Of a stretch of DNA of 64,000 nucleotides, positions 7,443-64,000 are shown piece by piece. The position numbers were made by a program, and so were the translations under genes. Each line of letters opens with the position of its first letter. Position 1 is the first letter of the stretch. The stretch comes from an uncultured Spirochaetales bacterium. GTDB lineage: Bacteria; Spirochaetota; Spirochaetia; Sphaerochaetales; Sphaerochaetaceae. The DNA lies in contig CASDRU010000006.1 of assembly GCA_949283305.1 (NCBI GenBank), positions 248,001 through 312,000 on the forward strand, read 5' to 3'. A model generated the notes under the pieces. It had not been told where the DNA came from and made no database searches. It was given only the letters and a program-made list of their open reading frames with translations.

Positions 7443-7991
7443 TTAAATCTCTATGCACTTGCACTCAGAGAAATCGAATGCAGAAAAATACATATCCTCA
7501 AGCGGGATGTACACTTTCCTGTACTGTTCAAAAACCTGAGGGGATGTGCGTTTTTCTATTCTTTCCAGTCTTTTTTCAAACTCTGACTGCAAGATGTATT
7601 TCAAATCATAAGCATGTCTGAATTCAGGATTAAGTGCATATACGCCTTCAACTATCCTGATTCTGCTTTTTATCAGCTTCTTTTCCCTAATGCTCTGGCT
7701 TCTGCAATCAAACACAGAATATTCAAACGATGGAAGATCGATCTGGTTTATGACTTCACTGAGAAATCTCTTCTTGTCAAGGAAATTTCCAGCAACTGTA
7801 AAATTTTCCTCCTTTCTCTCTTTTACGGGAATGAAGAAGTCATCCATATGGATTATATCAGCGCCCAGAATATCTTCCAGCTTCTTTGCCAGTGTTGTCT
7901 TTCCGCATCCGCTCTTTCCGTCAATTGCAACAACAGCCATCCCCTTTCTTTCAAGAATAGAGGAGATGGCATTCATTATTTCCTCAATCAC
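7443..7991 (-). CDS. Uridine kinase-like P-loop kinase
   Basis: 182 residues with Walker A GKSGCGKTT near residue 25, then HMDDFF, the substrate-site arrangement of uridine kinase-like P-loop enzymes, and a later RIVEGVYAL strand. Starts at GTG 7991, whose GTGA overlaps the ilvB stop, so it is translationally coupled as the last gene of the ilv-leu operon. Nothing ties its activity to branched-chain synthesis. The exact phosphate acceptor cannot be read from the sequence. Confidence 0.72.
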   Translation of the reverse strand: MIEEIMNAISSILERKGMAVVAIDGKSGCGKTTLAKKLEDILGADIIHMDDFFIPVKERKEENFTVAGNFLDKKRFLSEVINQIDLPSFEYSVFDCRSQSIREKKLIKSRIRIVEGVYALNPEFRHAYDLKYILQSEFEKRLERIEKRTSPQVFEQYRKVYIPLEDMYFSAFDFSECKCIEI

Positions 7992-9676
7992 GAGAAATCC
8001 TCATTGTCAATAAAGCCGATCATGTCATTTATCGATGCACCGGGAGCGACCATGGGAAGAACCTTGTCATCAAGAGGAATCTCTACATCGACAACGCATG
8101 CCTTGCCTAGGGCAAAGACCTCTTCAAGCACTTTAACAGGATCATCGCCCAAGCTGAGACGCCTACCCTCAATTGAGAATGCAGATGCAAGCCTGATCCA
8201 GTCAACAGGAGTTGAAAGCGTTGTCTCGCTATAGCGCCCATCATAGAAAAGAGTCTGCCACTGGCGCACCATCCCAAGGGCATGATTATTCATAATCAGG
8301 ATGACTACAGGAAGATTGTAGCGTGAGATTGTTGCAAGCTCATTCATGTTCATCCTGAAAGAGCCATCGCCTGCTATGTTCACTACACGGGCATCAGGAC
8401 GTGCCATCTGAGCCCCTATTGCAGCACCAGTGCCGAAGCCCATGGTGCCAAGACCTCCGCTTGTCAAAAACCTGCGTGCTCTTATTGTCTTTAGAAACTG
8501 TGCAGCCCACATCTGATGCTGCCCGACTTCTGTTGTTATCACATTGTTCTCAGGAAGGACCTTCTCAAGAGCCTTCAGAACCTCACGGCTTCTCTTGCTT
8601 TCTGTAGTGACCTTCATAGGATAGCGTTCTCTGAGTCTCTGGATATTCTCAACCCATTCATGGTGATCAAGAGGATTCGAATCAAAGTGAGAGACAAGAC
8701 GTGAAAGTATCTCCTTTATATCCCCTATCACATGATGTGAAGTGTAGATGTTCTTGTCTATTTCTGCCGGATCCACATCAAGCTGAAGTATTTCTGCCTG
8801 GCGTGCAAATGTCGATGCATTTGAAATGACCCTGTCGGAAAAACGTGCTCCGCATACGATAAGCAGGTCGCATGAGTTCACGCACATATTCGAAAGTTTT
8901 GTTCCATGCATTCCCACCATTCCGGTAAAACGGGGATTTCTGGATTTTACTGCTCCAAGTGCCATGAGCGTTGAGCATGTTGCGCTGTCAGTAAGCTCCA
9001 AAAGCTTATTGAGGAGCTCTGAGGAATCGCTTCTGATCACACCTCCACCGATATAGAAGAAAGGACGCTTTGCACTCTCGATCATCCTTATCGCCTTATC
9101 AAGGTCTTTCTCATTCAGCTCTTTCTTCTCATCTTCATCAAGCACAATGTTCTCATCATATTCAATTTCTGCAACCTGGAGATCTTTGGGTACATCGACA
9201 AGAACAGGACCGGGGCGTCCAGATGATGCGATTTTAAAGGCCATGCGTATTGTCTTCACTATGTCCTCAGCCCTTTTTATGATCCAGTTGTGCTTTGTCA
9301 CAGGCATTGTGACACCTGTTATGTCAACCTCCTGGAAACTGTCGCGGCCAAGAAGGGAAAGAGGAACATTTCCCGTAATTGCAACAACAGGAGAAGAATC
9401 CATATAAGCTGTAGCAAGCCCAGTGACCAGATTTGTCGCACCCGGTCCGCTGGTAGCGATGCACACTCCTACCTTTCCGCTTGTCCTTGCATAGCCGTCA
9501 GCTGCATGGCTTGCTCCCTGCTCATGAGCAGTGAGGATATGCCGTATGTTACCTTTTTCCTTATATAGAGCATCATAAAGAGGTATGACCTGCCCCCCTG
9601 GATAACCAAACACGGTGTCAACACCTGCCCTTATAAGCTCTTTTACAATTATCTCAGCGCCTGTAAGCTTCATCAC
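7988..9676 (-). CDS. ilvB: Acetolactate synthase, large (catalytic) subunit
   Basis: 562 residues, typical length. TPP/FAD enzyme making acetolactate and acetohydroxybutyrate. N-terminal domain has [15 protein letters not shown] with the catalytic glutamate in [16 protein letters not shown]. The C-terminal TPP domain has the GDGSFRMN-to-NN metal motif. Overlaps the ilvD stop by ATGA and its own stop overlaps the kinase gene. Its regulatory subunit IlvN is at the far 5' end of the same operon, about 7 kb away, instead of adjacent. Confidence 0.96.
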
Positions 9677-11346
9677 TCCTCCCCGAGCACCGCACCCATA
9701 TCAGCACTCTTTACCTTCTGCATGTAGCGGTATAGATATCCGCCTTTGACTTTGCTCTCAAAGCCCTTGAGGTTTTTCCTTCTTGTGCTGAGAATTTCCT
9801 CTGAAACAAGAAGGTCAAGTCTGCCCTCATTGATGTCTATGTCAATGATGTCCCCTTCTTCAACAAGGGCAATCGGACCATCAGATGCGGCCTCAGGAGA
9901 AACATGCCCAATTGACGCTCCCCTTGTCGCACCGGAGAATCTTCCGTCTGTTATCAGGGCAACATCATCGCCAAGCCCCATTCCCATTATCGCACTGGTG
10001 GGAGAAAGCATCTCGCGCATTCCGGGTCCTCCCTTGGGTCCTTCATAGCGGATTACTACAACATCGCCCTTTTCCATTTTCTTTCCGTAAATTGCTTTTA
10101 TTGCCTCTTCCTCGGAATTGAAGACACGTGCTCTGCCCTTATGAGTGAGCATCTTTTCAGATACTGCGCTCTTCTTGACAACAGCTCCATTTGGAGCAAG
10201 CGAGCCGAAAAGTATTCTTATTCCACCAGTTGTACTGTATGGATCATCCACATTCCTTATGACAGAAGCATCATAGTTCTTTGCATCCTTGTAGCTTTCG
10301 TATATGCTCTTTCCTGTGACTGTCACAGCACTTCTGTTCAGCAGTCCTTTCTTATCAAGCTCATTCATAACAGCCATTATTCCGCCAGCTGCATCAAGAT
10401 CCTCAATATGATGCTTGCCTGCAGGAGCCAGATGGCAGAGGTTAGGAACCATCTCATTGATTCTGTTTATTTCTTTCAGATCAATCTTTATACCCACTTC
10501 ATGTGCAATTGCAGGAAGATGAAGTATTGTATTTGTACTGCAGCCAAGTGCCATGTCGACCTTCAGAGCATTCAAAAATGCATCCTCAGTCATGATATCC
10601 CTTGGCCTGATGTCTTTCTTCAGCATCTCCATAACGGCAAATCCTGCCTCTTTTGCAAGACGCTCACGTGCACTTGTGACGCTCAATATCGTGCCGTTTC
10701 CAGGAAGGGCCATTCCTATTGCCTCGCACAGGCAGTTCATGCTGTTTGCTGTGTACATTCCGCTGCAGCTTCCGCATGAAGGGCATGCTGAGTTCTCATA
10801 CTCCAAAAGCTCTTCATCGCTTATCAGCCCGGCCTTCTTCTTTCCCACAGCTTCAAACATGACAGAAAGACTCATTCCGTTCTTGTCTCCGCCCTTTATA
10901 TGGCCTGCCATCATCGGACCGCCTGAGACAAATACAGACGGCAGATTGAGTCTTCCTGCGGCCATCAGCATAGCAGGAACTATCTTGTCGCAGTTCGGAA
11001 TGAAAACAAGAGCGTCAAACTGATGAGCCTCAGCCATAACCTCTATGCTGTCTGCAATCAGCTCACGGGAAGGAAGAGAATACTTCATTCCGCTGTGTCC
11101 CATCGCAATTCCGTCGCAGACTCCGATTACAGGAAAGACTACAGGGTTTCCCCCAGCAAGGCGTACTGCTGCTTTCACATCCTCTGCAATCTTGTTCAGT
11201 TCCTTATGCCCGGGAATTATCTCGTTGAACGCGGATGCTATCCCGATTACAGGAAGCTCCATTTCCCTGTCAGTCCATCCCAGGGCCTTCAAAAGGGACC
11301 TGTGAGGTGCTCTGTCCTCACCTTTCTTTATTGTATCGCTTCTCAT
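9673..11346 (-). CDS. ilvD: Dihydroxy-acid dehydratase
   Basis: 557 residues. Fe-S enzyme that dehydrates dihydroxy acids to 2-keto acids in valine, leucine and isoleucine synthesis. Cluster and metal cysteines are in NCDKIVPAM and [17 protein letters not shown]. The active-site region [18 protein letters not shown] is near the C-terminus. ATGA overlaps with leuB upstream and ilvB downstream. Confidence 0.97.
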
Positions 11347-12404
11347 AATATCTCTCCTTCGACAAGACTTCCCATTTCGGATGTGCTAATCCAGGCCTCT
11401 CCTTCCTTTGCAATGTCCTTTGTCCTGAATCCCTTCTCTAAAACAGTTTTTACAGCCTTCTCAACATCATCGGCTTCCCTATCGAGGTTCAGGCTGTATC
11501 GGAGCATCATCGCAGCTGAGAGTATTGTTGCAAGAGGATTTGCAATATTCATCCCGGCAATGTCCGGAGCAGAGCCGTGAATCGGCTCATACATTCCTTT
11601 CTTTCCGTCAGACAGGGATGCAGATGGAAGAAGCCCTATGCTGCCTGTAATCATGCTTGCCTCATCTGAGAGAATGTCTCCGAACATGTTCTCTGTAAGG
11701 ATGACATCAAACTGGGCTGGATTGATTACAAGCTGCATGCTTGCATTATCGACATAAAGGTGGTTGAGCGTGACATCAGGATAGCTTGATGCGACCTCGT
11801 TTACAGTCTCTCTCCAGAGCCTTGAGGTCTCAAGCACATTTGCCTTGTCGACACTTGTCACTTTCTTTTTTCTCTTGCGTGCAGCCTCAAAGGCCTTGAT
11901 GCTGATTCTTCTTATCTCATCCTTTGAATAACTCATCACATCGTACGCGCTGTCGCCCTGTCTTTTCTTATCGCCAAAATATATTCCGCCTGTAAGCTCG
12001 CGGATGACAAGAACATCAACACCGCCCTTTATGATGCTGTCTTTGAGCGGGGAAGCAGACAAGAGCGCATCATAAATCACTGCAGGACGCATGTTGCAAT
12101 ATAAATTAAGGCTCTTTCTGAGTCCTAAAAGTGCCTTTTCAGGCCTCTTCGATCCTTCCAGGCTGTCCCACTTCGGGCCTCCGACTGCGCCAAGGAGGAC
12201 TGCATCGCTTTCCTTTGCCTTTTCTACAGTCACATCAGGCAGGCACTCTCCAGCTTCGTCTATTGCGGCGCCCCCTGCAAGAAGGTACTCAAAATGAAAT
12301 TCATGGCCATATTTTTTCTCAACAGCCTTGAGGACCTTGAGTGCCTCATCAACAATCTCCGGCCCGATTCCGTCCCCTTTTATAACAGCAATCCTTGCTT
12401 CCAT
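11343..12404 (-). CDS. leuB: 3-isopropylmalate dehydrogenase
   Basis: 353 residues. NAD-dependent oxidative decarboxylation of 3-isopropylmalate. Motifs: [11 protein letters not shown] at the N-terminus, [21 protein letters not shown], and the metal/NAD segment [17 protein letters not shown] followed by [12 protein letters not shown]. Start overlaps the leuD stop by one base (TGATG). Confidence 0.97.
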
Positions 12405-12889
12405 CAGAAATTCTCCTTCATGTAGTTTATAAGCCCTCCAGCTTTGATCAGATCCTGCATGAAAGGAGGAAAGCTTTTTGTCTCATACTCTTCATTCTTT
12501 GTTATATTCCTGATCTTTCCACTGTCAAAATCCACTGAGATTATATCGGATGCTTCTATCCTGTCTGCATCCTTGCACTCTAAAATCGGGAGGGCGATGT
12601 TTATGCTGTTGCGGTAGAATATGCGGGCAAAGCTCTTTGCAATCACGCAGGATACTCCGGCGCTCTTTATTGCAAGAGGGGCATGCTCCCGGGAGGAGCC
12701 GCAGCCGAAATTCTCAAGAGCGACGATTATATCGCCTTTCTTCACATTCTTGATAAAGTCTGCATCAATATCCTCCATGCAATGGCTTGCAAGCTCTGAT
12801 GCATCGCTTGTATTGAGGTAGCGTGCAGGAATGATCACATCCGTGTCCACGTTGTTCCCGTATTTGAATACTTTTCCTTCAACTTTCAT
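12404..12889 (-). CDS. leuD: 3-isopropylmalate dehydratase, small subunit
   Basis: 161 residues, the short LeuD form that pairs with the LeuC2-type large subunit. Motifs: [12 protein letters not shown] and [12 protein letters not shown], the latter forming part of the active site. A GTG at 12892 is possible, but ATG 12889 is preferred: it overlaps the leuC stop as TGATG and lies 7 nt after GGAGG. Confidence 0.95.
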
Positions 12890-14145
12890 CACATGACCTC
12901 CTCAGGATGTGTGATATATCCAGTAAGAGCGCTGGCAGCTGCGACATAAGGGCTTGCAAGATACACCTCGCTCTTCACATGCCCCATTCTTCCCACGAAA
13001 TTCCTGTTTGTCGTAGAGATGCATCTTTCTCCTTCTGCAAGTATTCCCATATAGCCGCCAAGACAGGGACCGCATGTAGGAGTTGAGATCACGCAGCCTG
13101 CATCAATGAATATGTCAGCAAGACCCAGCTTTATGCACTCTTTATAGATTTTCTGAGTTGCAGGGATCACTATTGTCCTGACATATGGCGCAACCTTTTT
13201 CCCTTTCAGGATCTCTGCAGCAGCTTTCATGTCAGAAAGCCTTCCATTTGTGCAGCTTCCAATTACGACCTGGTCTATCTTTATGTTCCCTGAGTCCTTT
13301 GCAAGATGTGTGTTCTCAGGAAGGTGCGGGTAGCTCACTGTGCAATCGAGCTTTGACAGATCGATTTCAATGACATCTGAGTATCTTGCATCCTTATCGC
13401 TTTCATAGATCACGGGCTCTTTTGCTCCGCTGCTTTTCAAATACTCCACTGTCTTTTCATCAACGCGGAATATTCCTGCCTTTGCACCTGCCTCTATTGC
13501 CATGTTTGAAATCGTGAAACGGTCATCCATCTCAAGAAAGGAAAGAGCTTCTCCAGAGAACTCAAGAGCCTTGTATAGTGCACCGTCAACTCCGATTTCA
13601 CCTATAAGGTGGAGTATCACATCCTTTCCGGTCACAAAGCGTCCGGGTTTTCCCTTAAGGTTCACAAGTATGGTCTCCGGCACCTTGAACCAGGCCTTTC
13701 CTGTTGCCATTCCGCATGCCATGTCAGTGCTTCCCATTCCTGTTGAGAAAGCTCCGAGAGCACCGTATGTGCATGTATGGCTGTCTGCGCCTATTACGAC
13801 ATCGCCTGCTGTGACAAGTCCTTTTTCAGGAAGCAGGGCATGCTCTATTCCCATGCATCCCACTTCAAAGTAGTTCTTTATGTCCTCTTTTTTTGCAAAC
13901 TCCCTCATTGCACGGCACTGCTGGGCGGCCTTGATGTCCTTATTTGGAGCGAAATGGTCTGGTACAAGGGCAATCTTTGTCCTGTCAAAGACATGTTCCT
14001 TTCCGAATTTCCCGAATTCCTTTATCGCAACAGGGCTTGTTATGTCATTTCCAAGAACAAGCGAGAGATCTGAGATGATGAGATCTCCCGGCTCAACGTG
14101 ATCAAGATGTGCAGAACGGGCAAGTATTTTCTCAACCATTGTCAT
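12889..14145 (-). CDS. leuC: 3-isopropylmalate dehydratase, large subunit
   Basis: 418 residues, aconitase-superfamily large subunit of the roughly 420-residue LeuC2/HacA type. 4Fe-4S ligands are in GSCTNGR and [10 protein letters not shown], with a substrate motif [16 protein letters not shown] longer frame back to 14193 would overlap leuA by 47 nt. ATG 14145, one base after the leuA TGA and preceded by GAGAGG, is chosen. Works with LeuD. Confidence 0.95.
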
Positions 14146-14146
14146 A

Positions 14147-15754
14147 TCAGATACCTCTCTTGTCTGTATGCTCAAAGAGCATGTCGTTCTCAAAGCTCAT
14201 GTTCACCGCGCTTCCTCCGTCAGAGAGAGCATGATTTGAAAGCATCTTGTTAACAGCATTGAGACAGCTGAGTATGCTTGCCTCAATTACATCAGTTGAG
14301 ACACCTCTTCCGCGGTATACCCCGCTCCTGTCAGAGATCTTTACAAACACCTCTCCCTGAGCATCCCTGTCCTCAGTGAGCGCTTCAAGCTGGTACTCTT
14401 CAAGAGAAAAAGGATGCTTTATTATCTTCTCCACACATCTGAGGGAAGCATATACAGGTCCTGTTCCAGATGCCACTTCCTGATAGATCTTGTCGCTTCC
14501 GCTCTTTTTCAGGCTTATGCAGGCAGTGCTTGTCATCCTGTTTCCGGAATTCACGACAAACGAATCGAGAGCCCATATCTGTTCATCAGGATTCTCCCTG
14601 TTTTCAACAAGCGCCATGATATCGCGTTCTGAAATGTTCTTTTTCTTGTCGCACAGCTTCTTGAAGGCTGAGAAAAGATCATCCATATGCTCTTTTGAAA
14701 ACTGGTATCCCATTTCCTCGAGCTTTTTGGAAAAAGCATGGATTCCGCTGTGCTTTCCAAGGACAAGATTTGTCTTTATAACTCCCACGCTTTCAGGCTT
14801 CATGATCTCATATGTCATGCTGTTGGCCATCATGCCATGCTGATGTATTCCAGATTCATGAGCAAAGGCATTGTCTCCGACAATGGCCTTAGATGGACTG
14901 ATCCTCACACCTGTTGTCGAAGAAAGAAGGCGTGCGCTCTTCATTATCTCCTCAGTTTTTATCGCAGTATGAAAGCCGAATTTGTCGCTTCTGGTCTTGA
15001 GAGCCATCACAACTTCCTCAAGCGCTGCGTTTCCTGCTCTCTCTCCAATTCCGCAAAGGGTGCACTCAACCTGGCGCGCGCCTGCTTCTATTCCTGAGAT
15101 TGTGTTTGCAACTGCAAGACCAAGGTCATTATGGCAATGCATGCTTATAATTGCCCTGTCTATGTTTCTCACATGGCTTTTGACATAGCTGACCATCTCT
15201 TTTATCTCATCTGGAGTTGAGTATCCGACAGTGTCAGGAAGATTTATCGTGCTTGCTCCGCAGTCAATTGCCTTCTCTACAACGCGGGCCATGTACTCGT
15301 AGTCAGTCCTGGTTGCATCCTCAAGGGAAAACTCGACATCAGAACAGAGGGAGCGGGCATATGTCACAGCATCCTCAATCCTCTTTAAAGCCTCCTCTCT
15401 TGTTATTTTGAGCTTATATTCAAGATGAAGATCGCTTGTCGCGAGAAACACATGAATCCTGGGATGCTTTGCATTCCTTACAGCCCCGTATGCCGCATCT
15501 ATGTCCTTTTTCAGTGCACGCGCAAGGGATGCAACCACAGGGCGCTCAACTGCGGTGCTGATTGCCTCAACTGAGGCATAATCGCCTGGACTGCTTATGG
15601 CAAAGCCAGCCTCGATGATATCCACACCGAGGCTTTCAAGCATCTTTGCCATTCTGATCTTCTCTTCGATGTTCATGCTGTAGCCTGGAGCCTGTTCCCC
15701 ATCGCGCAGCGTTGTATCGAAAATGTATACTCTGTTCTTATCAATACCTTCCAT
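14147..15754 (-). CDS. leuA: 2-isopropylmalate synthase
   Basis: 535 residues. Condenses acetyl-CoA with 2-oxoisovalerate, the committed step to leucine. DRE-TIM barrel motif [13 protein letters not shown] near residue 13, metal-site [26 protein letters not shown] and HESGIHQHG. The C-terminal about 130 residues form the leucine-responsive LeuA dimer domain, ending in [13 protein letters not shown] and a short tail. An alternative, citramalate synthase, is less likely given the adjacent leuCDB set, but cannot be fully ruled out. Confidence 0.93.
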
Positions 15755-15768
15755 AGTCCTATCCTGCT

Positions 15769-17284
<1,516 letters not shown>

Positions 17285-17298
17285 CCTCCCTCCCTTGT

Positions 17299-17367
17299 AA
17301 AAAAAAGAGCCCGCGGAATTTTTATACCACGGGCCTATAGCAAAAGAGCTCAACTCGTGGTTCAGCT
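17299..17367 (-). promoter_or_regulatory. Transcription attenuator of the ilv-leu operon
   Basis: Minus-strand RNA has four pairing segments. Segment 1 (17360-17367, spanning the leader stop) pairs 7 of 8 with segment 2 (17347-17354). Antiterminator CCACG (17356-17360) can instead pair with CGTGG in segment 3 (17327-17331). Segment 3 (17327-17335) pairs over 9 bp, two G-U, with segment 4 (17308-17316), followed by eight U (17299-17306), a terminator. This is the textbook 1:2/3:4 versus 2:3 arrangement, reading leader-peptide translation as a branched-chain amino acid sensor. Confidence 0.88.
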
Positions 17368-17427
17368 TCTAAGCAGGCTAATGATAATAAGGGAAGAAAG
17401 ACTGGAAACTATATTAATTCTGTGCAT
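17362..17427 (-). CDS. ilv-leu operon leader peptide
   Basis: Too short for routine gene calling: 21 codons from ATG 17427 to TGA 17362-17364, preceded by a strong AAAGGAGGAG. Ten of 21 residues are branched-chain: Ile at 4, 6, 14, 15, 16; Leu at 10, 13, 18, 19; Val at 7. The run LIIISLL lies just before the first attenuator segment, where a stalled ribosome would free the antiterminator. Function is as a translated sensor, not as a protein. Confidence 0.88.
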   Translation of the reverse strand: MHRINIVSSLSSLIIISLLRS

Positions 17428-17447
17428 GTCTCTCCTCCTTTTATCTT

Positions 17448-17487
17448 TTTATAATGCTTTTCTAACTTATGACAGGTCTTTTGTCAA
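17448..17487 (-). promoter_or_regulatory. Promoter region of the ilv-leu operon
   Basis: Two overlapping candidates on the minus strand: CTGTCA (17470-17475) with TATAAA (17448-17453), 16 bp; and TTGACA (17482-17487) with TAGAAA (17459-17464), 17 bp. The second leaves more room for the leader-peptide ribosome site and is slightly preferred. Confidence 0.6.
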
Positions 17488-17523
17488 TTGAGGAAAAGCA
17501 TTATGTCAAGCATTTTCTTTTCC

Positions 17524-18471
17524 TTAAGTCCTTATTTCCCTGTTAAACGGCTTTCCAAGGCTCTTCGGGCTGTCTTTCTGGTTGCCGCTTGTAAGGGCAA
17601 GAACAACAATTACAAGCACATATGGAAGCATTACAGCAAACTCATACGGGAATGATATTCCAAAGGACTGCATTACTGTCTGGAATGTCTGGGCAAGCGA
17701 GAAAAGAAGTGCTCCGCCCATGATCTTCACAGGATGCCAGTGCCCGAAATACACGAGTGCGACAGCAATGAAGCCTCTTCCGCTGATAAGCTCATCAGAG
17801 AACATCTTTGCATGGCATACAGAAAGATATGCTCCTCCCAATGCTGCAAGCATTCCTCCGAGCGCAAGAGCTTCATAGCGTGTTTTAGTGACATTTATTC
17901 CCATGCTGTCTGCAGCGCGTGGATAAGTTCCTACGCTTCTCACTTTCAGCCCCCAGGGACTCTTGAAGAGTATGTAGCATGAAACGGGAACAAGAAGGAA
18001 TGCAAGATATGTGACTGCATTGTGTGAAAAGAACATCTTGCCAAGATAAGGTATCTTTGATAAAAGCGGGATTTCAAGAGTTCCCATTCCCTTTATCGAC
18101 TGTGTTCCTCCGACAAAGTGGCGGAAAAGCGTTCCAGCAACACCAACTCCGAACATCTGAAGTCCGATTCCTGCAATTCCCTGAGGAGCACGGAATGTTA
18201 TTACAATAAGTCCGAAGAAAAGCCCCATGAGAGCTCCAGATAAAGCGGCAAGGACAAGGCCGAGAACATTATAGATTCCGCTTACAGATCCTGCTCCTGC
18301 AACTGAAAAAGGAATGAGCATGCCGATGAAGGCTCCTATTGCCATTATTCCCTCACAGCCAAGATTGAATATTCCGGCTCTCTGGTTGTACATCTCTCCG
18401 ATTGATGCAAGAAGGAGGGCAACAGATGACGGTATGCAAATACTTATTATGTTTACAATGATATCAAGCAT
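17524..18471 (-). CDS. BMP-type (nucleoside-like) ABC transporter permease 2
   Basis: 315-residue integral membrane protein of the BPD_transp_2 family, like YufQ/NupC-type permeases partnered with BMP-family binding proteins. It has the NQRAGIFNLGCEGIMAIGAF motif and 8 or more hydrophobic segments. Start ATG 18471 has a GGAGGAAG site and overlaps the previous permease by 8 nt; the longer frame to 18558 lies inside that gene. Last gene of the importer operon. No clear terminator separates it from the ilv-leu promoter region. Confidence 0.88.
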   Translation of the reverse strand: MLDIIVNIISICIPSSVALLLASIGEMYNQRAGIFNLGCEGIMAIGAFIGMLIPFSVAGAGSVSGIYNVLGLVLAALSGALMGLFFGLIVITFRAPQGIAGIGLQMFGVGVAGTLFRHFVGGTQSIKGMGTLEIPLLSKIPYLGKMFFSHNAVTYLAFLLVPVSCYILFKSPWGLKVRSVGTYPRAADSMGINVTKTRYEALALGGMLAALGGAYLSVCHAKMFSDELISGRGFIAVALVYFGHWHPVKIMGGALLFSLAQTFQTVMQSFGISFPYEFAVMLPYVLVIVVLALTSGNQKDSPKSLGKPFNREIRT

Positions 18472-42050: not shown

Positions 42051-42054
42051 AAAG

Positions 42055-42130
42055 GGGTCTAGGGGTGGCTTTTAGCCTGAGATTATACCCGTCAACCTGA
42101 TCCGGATAATACCGGCGTAGGGAGCGACAA
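42055..42130 (+). promoter_or_regulatory. TPP riboswitch (THI element)
   Basis: Conserved core: GGGGTGGC, CTGAGA (42077-42082), ACCC (42087-42090), ACCTGATC (42095-42102), GGATAAT (42104-42110) and GCGTAGGGA (42115-42123). It senses thiamine pyrophosphate upstream of thiBPQ. No T-rich terminator follows before the AAGAGG site at 42172-42177, so control is more likely at translation initiation. Confidence 0.95.
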
Positions 42131-42183
42131 GTGTATCTAAGTAAAGAAATCCCGGGACAGAACAATTTTATAAGAGGTGTTTT

Positions 42184-63387: not shown

Positions 63388-64000
63388 TCACTTTACAGGG
63401 TAGTTTGCGCTAAGATAGTCAGCAAAAATTTCATTGAGAACTCTTCCTTCCTGGACAACCTTGCCAAACATTGTATATCCATCTCCGCCTGCTGCCATGA
63501 AGTCGTTTGTAGCAACAAGGTATGTCTCATCCTTGTCAATCGGCTGACCGTTTAAAAGAACATTCAGGATTCTCTCTCCCACCGGATTCTCGATGTTATA
63601 CACTACAGTGAGGTCTGTCTGGCTGAATGCTCCATTTTCCTCTGGAAGAACTGAATATCCCCATTCAAGGGCTTCATAAACCTCTGCTCCTGTTATCTCG
63701 CATACATTGAGGACATTTGTGAAAGGAAGTGTGTCATTGACCATTCCGAGTGTGACATCGCCTTTCTTGATGCTTGCCCTGATTCCTCCGCCGTTTACAA
63801 TTGTGAAATCAGCGCCGCTTTCCTCAGTAAGAGCCTTGCAGACAAGATCTGAAAGATTTGTCTTTCTTGTTCTTACATTGCTTCTCTCTCCGTCCAGATC
63901 CTCATCAACTGTTGCAATTACGCGGCTTAACGCCTCGTCAAGCTTTGCATTCACACTGTCAATATATGCAAGCACCTGAGCATCATCATCAATCTCACTT
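63388..64000 (-). CDS. 5'-nucleotidase/UshA-family hydrolase, C-terminal part (5' truncated by window)
   Basis: The frame is open to the window edge, so only about 203 C-terminal residues are seen. 5_nucleotid_C domain: NLSDLVCKALTEESGADFTI, VNGGGIRASIKKGDVTLG, PFTNVLNVCEITGAEVYEAL, then TDLTVVYNIENPVGERI and TNDFMAAGGDGYTMFG with the substrate-stacking Phe/Tyr region. The N-terminal metallophosphatase domain and export signal are outside. Releases phosphate from nucleotides or related compounds, normally outside the cytoplasm. Confidence 0.9.
   Translation of the reverse strand, partial: SEIDDDAQVLAYIDSVNAKLDEALSRVIATVDEDLDGERSNVRTRKTNLSDLVCKALTEESGADFTIVNGGGIRASIKKGDVTLGMVNDTLPFTNVLNVCEITGAEVYEALEWGYSVLPEENGAFSQTDLTVVYNIENPVGERILNVLLNGQPIDKDETYLVATNDFMAAGGDGYTMFGKVVQEGRVLNEIFADYLSANYPVK

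Follow-up and report, generated by a model that had tools for sequence, protein, structure and literature searches.

A probable leader-peptide attenuator of the ilv-leu operon in a Candidatus Ornithospirochaeta genome and its spirochaete relatives

RESULTS AND DISCUSSION

A leader peptide and terminator precede the ilv-leu operon

Upstream of ilvN in the genome of a gut spirochaete lies an element that, judging from its sequence and that of its relatives, is very probably a classical ribosome-mediated transcription attenuator of the ilv-leu operon. Its anatomy, conservation, pairing constraints and codon placement were computed directly in this analysis; the dynamics, footprint step and amino-acid response that we ascribe to it are inferred from established trp, leu and ilv attenuation. 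The element was found in a 64,000-nucleotide stretch (the window) of a 1.49-Mb Candidatus Ornithospirochaeta genome (Spirochaetota, Sphaerochaetaceae-type family). NCBI places Ornithospirochaeta in Spirochaetaceae incertae sedis, and our search family, f1, was taken as Sphaerochaetaceae in the GTDB sense. The original prediction, made from the window alone, had supposed a likely spirochaete, in agreement with the nearest named genome, Candidatus Ornithospirochaeta avicola (Spirochaetota; G029), which shares 99% IlvN identity.

All parts of the element lie on the minus strand (Table 1). The promoter spans ~17487-17459, and the element as a whole begins with the −35 box and ends with the final U residue. 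The 21-codon peptide with 10 Ile/Leu/Val (ILV) residues and a strong ribosome site, the mutually exclusive 1:2, 2:3 and 3:4 pairings and the eight U residues were all recovered as first described. The operon reads ilvN-ilvC-leuA-leuC-leuD-leuB-ilvD-ilvB followed by a kinase-like open reading frame (ORF), and its products make Ile, Leu and Val, the amino acids enriched in the leader peptide. Of the nine ilv-leu genes originally counted, NCBIfam confirmed eight, whereas the ninth, with NCBIfam kinase matches below the cut-off and weak Pfam P-loop matches, is no recognised branched-chain amino acid (BCAA) enzyme.

Table 1. Features of the leader element and the operon downstream of it (positions in the window)
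Feature	Position	Strand	Evidence or remark
−35 box TTGACA, operon promoter	17482-17487	−	Near-universal in g1/g2 leaders
Candidate −10 TAGAAA	17 nt downstream of −35 box	−	
Shine-Dalgarno (SD) GGAGGAG of leader ORF	17432-17438	−	SD also upstream of relatives' leader ORFs
Leader peptide ORF MHRINIVSSLSSLIIISLLRS, 21 codons + UGA	17362-17427	−	10/21 Ile/Leu/Val
P1 protector hairpin (1:2), arms 17367-17360 and 17354-17347	17347-17367	−	−6.9 kcal/mol and strand-swap test
Segment A (2), ACCACG, directly 3′ of stop codon	17356-17361	−	
Segment B (3), GGCCCGUGGU	17326-17335	−	Core CCCGUGG invariant, 48 aligned sequences
Segment C (4), CCGCGGGCU, 3′ arm of terminator	17308-17316	−	
U8 tract of intrinsic terminator	17299-17306	−	
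ilvN, acetolactate synthase small subunit	16784-17284	−	NCBIfam
ilvC, ketol-acid reductoisomerase	15769-16758	−	NCBIfam
leuA, 2-isopropylmalate synthase	14147-15754	−	NCBIfam
leuC, 3-isopropylmalate dehydratase large subunit	12889-14148	−	NCBIfam
leuD, 3-isopropylmalate dehydratase small subunit	12404-12892	−	NCBIfam
leuB, 3-isopropylmalate dehydrogenase	11343-12404	−	NCBIfam
ilvD, dihydroxy-acid dehydratase	9673-11346	−	NCBIfam
ilvB, acetolactate synthase large subunit	7988-9676	−	NCBIfam
Ninth ORF, putative P-loop kinase-like protein, overlaps ilvB end	7443-7991	−	NCBIfam, Pfam

We asked how unusual this combination is within the window. Both strands together hold 265 SD-preceded ORFs of 10 to 35 codons, 23 of them with at least 40% ILV, and a strong terminator hairpin within 95 nt downstream follows just one of the 23, the leader described here (−16.4 kcal/mol; runner-up, −8.0). 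The folding energy of the whole leader is ordinary (z = −0.96), so significance is carried by the combination of features and by conservation. A simple terminator scan did not pick up the leader terminator, because its loop is longer than 8 nt.

Several other elements were observed in the window and genome. A perfect 12-bp inverted repeat (ATAATGCTTTTC / GAAAAGCATTAT; 17451-17462 and 17493-17504) lies on both sides of the −35 box; it is present in G029 too, was not seen in other relatives, and its 12-mer occurs six times in the window with at most one mismatch (0.76 expected). The repeat is a possible candidate operator. At 63393-63434 (minus strand) there is a short SD-preceded ORF, MKFLLTILAQTTL, with 38% ILV and, downstream of it, a strong terminator hairpin (−15.9); this may be a gene end. 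A TPP riboswitch (62.8 bits) occupies 42051-42141 on the plus strand. No His-run leader was found elsewhere in the genome.

Conservation in two genera

An ilvN match was found in 95 of the 139 genomes of family f1, and of an initial set of 90 ilvN loci that we examined, 54 come from two genera, g1 and g2. There, the layout consists of a leader stop codon 0 to 2 nt 5′ of CCACG or a variant of it, then B, C and a U-run. Relatives lacking the peptide or the pairing potential had been named in the original prediction as grounds for rejecting it; leader and A-B-C layout were present at 53 of the 54 g1/g2 loci, in one copy per genome, the exception being L089. At that g1 locus ilvN is present and leader and terminator are unrecognisable, perhaps through degeneration or rearrangement of the region. 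A covariance model built from 48 g1/g2 elements (R1) gave a single strong match per genome, upstream of ilvN and limited to g1 and g2. In relatives that lack ilvN, among them G067, G004 and G024, the model found no match. Weak R1 matches in other families (E ~0.001 to 0.01) resemble ordinary terminators, and none adjoins ilvN-, ilvB- or ilvD-type genes; we rejected them.

Three mutually exclusive helices

The leader RNA is predicted to form P1 (1:2; −6.9 kcal/mol), an antiterminator, A:B (2:3; −13.2 kcal/mol), and a terminator, B:C (3:4; −16.4 kcal/mol). P1 is a small hairpin on codon −1 and the leader stop codon that closes over segment A, and B can pair with A (17331-17326) or with C (17335-17327). 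Folding, which the original prediction had proposed as a check, bore this out: in its minimum free energy (MFE) structure the free leader forms P1 and the terminator, with A:B as the alternative. Across the g1/g2 alignment, pairing was kept in 96.7% of cells for A:B (at most 53.5% when slid) and in 86.0% for B:C (at most 54.0% when slid), counts that measure kept complementarity and not covariation, because A and B hardly vary in these genera. Segment B, being shared by the two helices, is frozen.

Covariation among relatives, also proposed as a check, was uninformative for A:B and B:C, whose segments are near-invariant, and was evident for P1. Examples of P1 in relatives are AACUAGAC-CACG-GUUUAGUU and UGCUAAC-CACG-GUUUAGCA; the window's own P1 reads AGCUGAAC-CACGA-GUUGAGCU. 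When strands were swapped between species, in a permutation test that ignores phylogeny, native pairs averaged −5.77 kcal/mol and permuted pairs −4.26 ± 0.25, with 0 of 5000 permutations as good; the complementary changes are nonetheless several and distinct, codon −1 UGC occurring with GCA, AAC with GUU and AGC with GCU. By genus, g1 alone gave 0/5000, and g2 alone, with 8 distinct sequences, gave 456/5000, which is not significant. Codon −1 ends in C at all but one of the 53 loci, a regularity that we attribute to the P1 helix.

On the basis of shuffles we rejected a protector between A and the leader body, A pairing with the rest of the leader no better than shuffled A does (−4.02 versus −4.24). 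This result, together with the weakness of P1 beside A:B, lends something to a three-segment attenuator without a protector, in which A:B would compete with B:C alone, P1 would be irrelevant and an untranslated leader would read through. We consider that arrangement improbable, however, given that the stop-codon P1 covaries across species, accounts for codon −1 ending in C and appears with the terminator in the window's MFE structure. For the attenuator with a protector, we regard all three exclusive helices, P1, antiterminator and terminator, as supported by the aligned sequences.

Codon content of the leaders

All 52 g1/g2 leaders compared start with AUG, and they range from 17 to 30 codons. 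In nearly all, TTGACA or a sequence close to it lies ~57 to 75 nt 5′ of the leader ATG, with a spacer of 16 to 18 nt. Mean ILV share is 47% in frame versus 25% and 16% in the other two frames. Counting back from the stop, codons −3 and −4 encode Ile, Leu or Val in 52/52 leaders and codon −1 in 0/52; ILV is near-invariant at codons −8 and −9 too. Of the Leu codons in the leaders, 26% are the rare CUA, versus 1% of those in ilvN; the window's own leader contains no CUA. Besides ILV content, the peptides conserve little. Conservation of the layout, in-frame ILV content, the −3/−4 geometry and the three helices together favour the original reading of the locus as a leader-peptide attenuator.

Simple terminators between promoter and gene do occur, and the short ORF might be a chance occurrence or encode a functional microprotein, with a constitutive terminator fixing operon expression at a low level. 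Such an arrangement would leave unpredicted the ILV residues at −3/−4, the excess of CUA, the position of the stop codon right next to A and the exclusive helices, while a microprotein sits poorly with peptides that vary in length and keep little apart from ILV content; we judge this explanation very unlikely. Least credible, to the point of being negligible, is direct sensing of amino acids or their tRNAs by a T-box, riboswitch or protein-binding RNA: the genome does hold a T-box-like element before thrS (L263; G000:C3:5059-5286, minus strand), its only strong T-box match, at 92.4 bits against a cut-off of 93, but no Rfam family, Leu_leader included, reached its curated gathering score within 17200-17600, and the strongest constraints at the leader are codon content and stop-codon placement. 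The T-box model RF00230 had no match at the leader locus, and no Lrp/AsnC protein was found in the genome.

Proposed mechanism

By analogy with known attenuators, we propose that leader RNA would be transcribed from the promoter and that the 21-codon ORF would be translated behind RNA polymerase. When charged Ile, Leu and Val tRNAs suffice, the ribosome would reach the stop codon and place its footprint over segment A, B would pair with C, and the resulting terminator, ending in U8, would stop transcription before ilvN. When branched-chain aminoacyl-tRNA is scarce, the ribosome would instead stall at the Ile/Leu codons three to four before the stop. If its A site held codon −3 or −4, it would mask the 5′ arm of P1 wholly or largely and leave segment A free to pair with B before C is made, so that the terminator would be blocked and the operon transcribed. 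Since A:B can form before C is transcribed, it may pre-empt the more stable terminator. If the leader were untranslated, P1 would form, A would be sequestered and the terminator would prevail, making off the default state. By textbook values, a ribosome at the stop codon covers ~10 nt beyond it, the 3′ edge of the footprint lying ~15 nt from the P-site codon's first base; the invariant ILV codons at −3/−4 sit where this arithmetic puts a stalled ribosome over the 5′ arm of P1. The ILV codons at −8/−9 fall outside such simple arithmetic, as a ribosome stalled there would not mask P1.

Relatives with mostly U-less leaders

In the other f1 genera with ilvN (L010-L091 loci of g6, g11, g12, g13, g15, g16, g17, g19 and g20, with L258 and L260-L262), an ILV run stands at or beside the leader stop codon, adjoined by CCACGG:CCGUGG or a variant. 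Canonical U-runs are mostly missing, with one each at L045 and L049. Leaders there are long, usually 35 to 76 codons, often start with GUG or UUG and follow a GAGGAG or GAGGUG SD; M-x-[AG]-F-x-[KR]-Q-V recurs at the N terminus of many, the N terminus being ILV-poor and the ILV run lying at the stop. Aligned across g16, g12 and g13, the inner stem of the CCACGG:CCGUGG hairpin has five pairs changed on both sides, and in the g6/g15/g17/g19/g20 group one pair of B:C has A-U, G-C and C-G alternatives. The motif UAUACCC is conserved in g16 and g12.

In simple scans of two 20-kb regions of U-less relatives, U-tract terminators were not clearly more frequent than in shuffled sequence. A Rho N-terminal domain was matched in two of the three U-less-leader genomes searched, with one of the two matches below the cut-off. 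We can only suggest, as a possibility somewhat short of likely, that in these Sphaerochaeta-type relatives the same ancestral control is now an attenuator without a canonical U-tract terminator. Such a form would comprise a long leader, the covarying CCACGG:CCGUGG hairpin and a second hairpin, and it may depend on Rho or on a hairpin that lacks a U-tract.

Other families of the phylum

In families f26 and f44 (L219, L220 and L223), ILV-rich leaders occur upstream of ilvD in an ilvD-ilvB-ilvN order. Their triad is GGCGGCGG / CCGCUGCC / CAGCGGG, with the GGCGGCGG-type A abutting the stop codon, mutually exclusive B and C, and a U-run. Their A, B and C segments share no sequence with those of the Ornithospirochaeta element, and the exclusive pairings are alike; on this sequence evidence it is the same attenuation logic spelled in different letters. 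No leader before ilvN was found in the sampled f3 (13 loci), f8 (9 loci) or f4 (2 loci, one cut off at ilvN), where coverage was mostly confined to the region upstream of ilvN.

Comparison with known attenuators

The element closely resembles the enterobacterial attenuators of ilvGMEDA, ilvBN and leuABCD (ilvL, ivbL and leuL), which likewise combine a short, SD-preceded, ILV-rich peptide with exclusive 1:2, 2:3 and 3:4 helices and a U-tract terminator before a BCAA operon. The rare Leu codon CUA is enriched in leuL, as it is in the window's relatives. Unlike the enterobacterial attenuators, the spirochaete element has no Rfam Leu_leader match, its protector is a small stem on the stop codon, and one attenuator serves a fused ilv-leu operon that starts with ilvN.

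Outside the enterobacteria, too, leader peptides are known or proposed to control ilv genes, in Actinobacteria (PMC1262725, PMC10272879) and in Staphylococcus (PMC5794164). The Corynebacterium ilvB-II motif has a BCAA-rich upstream ORF (uORF), exclusive terminator and antiterminator, and reporter evidence (PMC10272879); it differs in that most of P1 falls within the uORF, the P1 loop carries the antiterminator strand and the operon controlled, in another phylum, is ilvBNC. In Staphylococcus aureus, a leucine-rich ilvD attenuator peptide precedes a combined ilv-leu operon (PMC5794164), but there, according to the published model, it is the poly-U tail of the terminator that is sequestered and not its stem, and CodY also acts. 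Mycobacterium cys leader peptides lack obvious terminators, and their authors suggest Rho (PMC1262725); they offer a precedent for the U-less spirochaete relatives, from which they differ in having cysteine codons and no conserved hairpins reported.

Also comparable is the Leptospira ilvB motif (WRC-14-1), with a BCAA-rich uORF ~70 nt 5′ of ilvB and attenuation proposed (PMC8632094, PMC10272879). Like the window element it comes from the same phylum and places such a uORF before an ilv gene; unlike it, the motif, known from seven Leptospira representatives, precedes ilvB and not ilvN and is Val/Thr-rich, and it is on these descriptions that we set the two apart. The original prediction had called the attenuator noteworthy in a spirochaete. 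The host is indeed one, but an ilv attenuator in a spirochaete is not new, given the Leptospira proposal, and the argument from novelty is weaker than stated because that proposal came earlier. We found no papers on ilv attenuation in Sphaerochaeta or Ornithospirochaeta in the open-access literature, to which the search was confined.

For Sphaerochaetaceae-type spirochaetes, our comparisons now give the classical attenuation proposed for a combined ilv-leu operon a comparative grounding, and they add an RNA element absent from Rfam. Its design is compact, the stop codon itself being part of the protector hairpin. Together with the mostly U-less leaders of its relatives, it provides a natural series for studying how attenuators lose or replace U-tract terminators; if our suggestion about those relatives is true, one family would hold both intrinsic and non-intrinsic forms of one attenuator.
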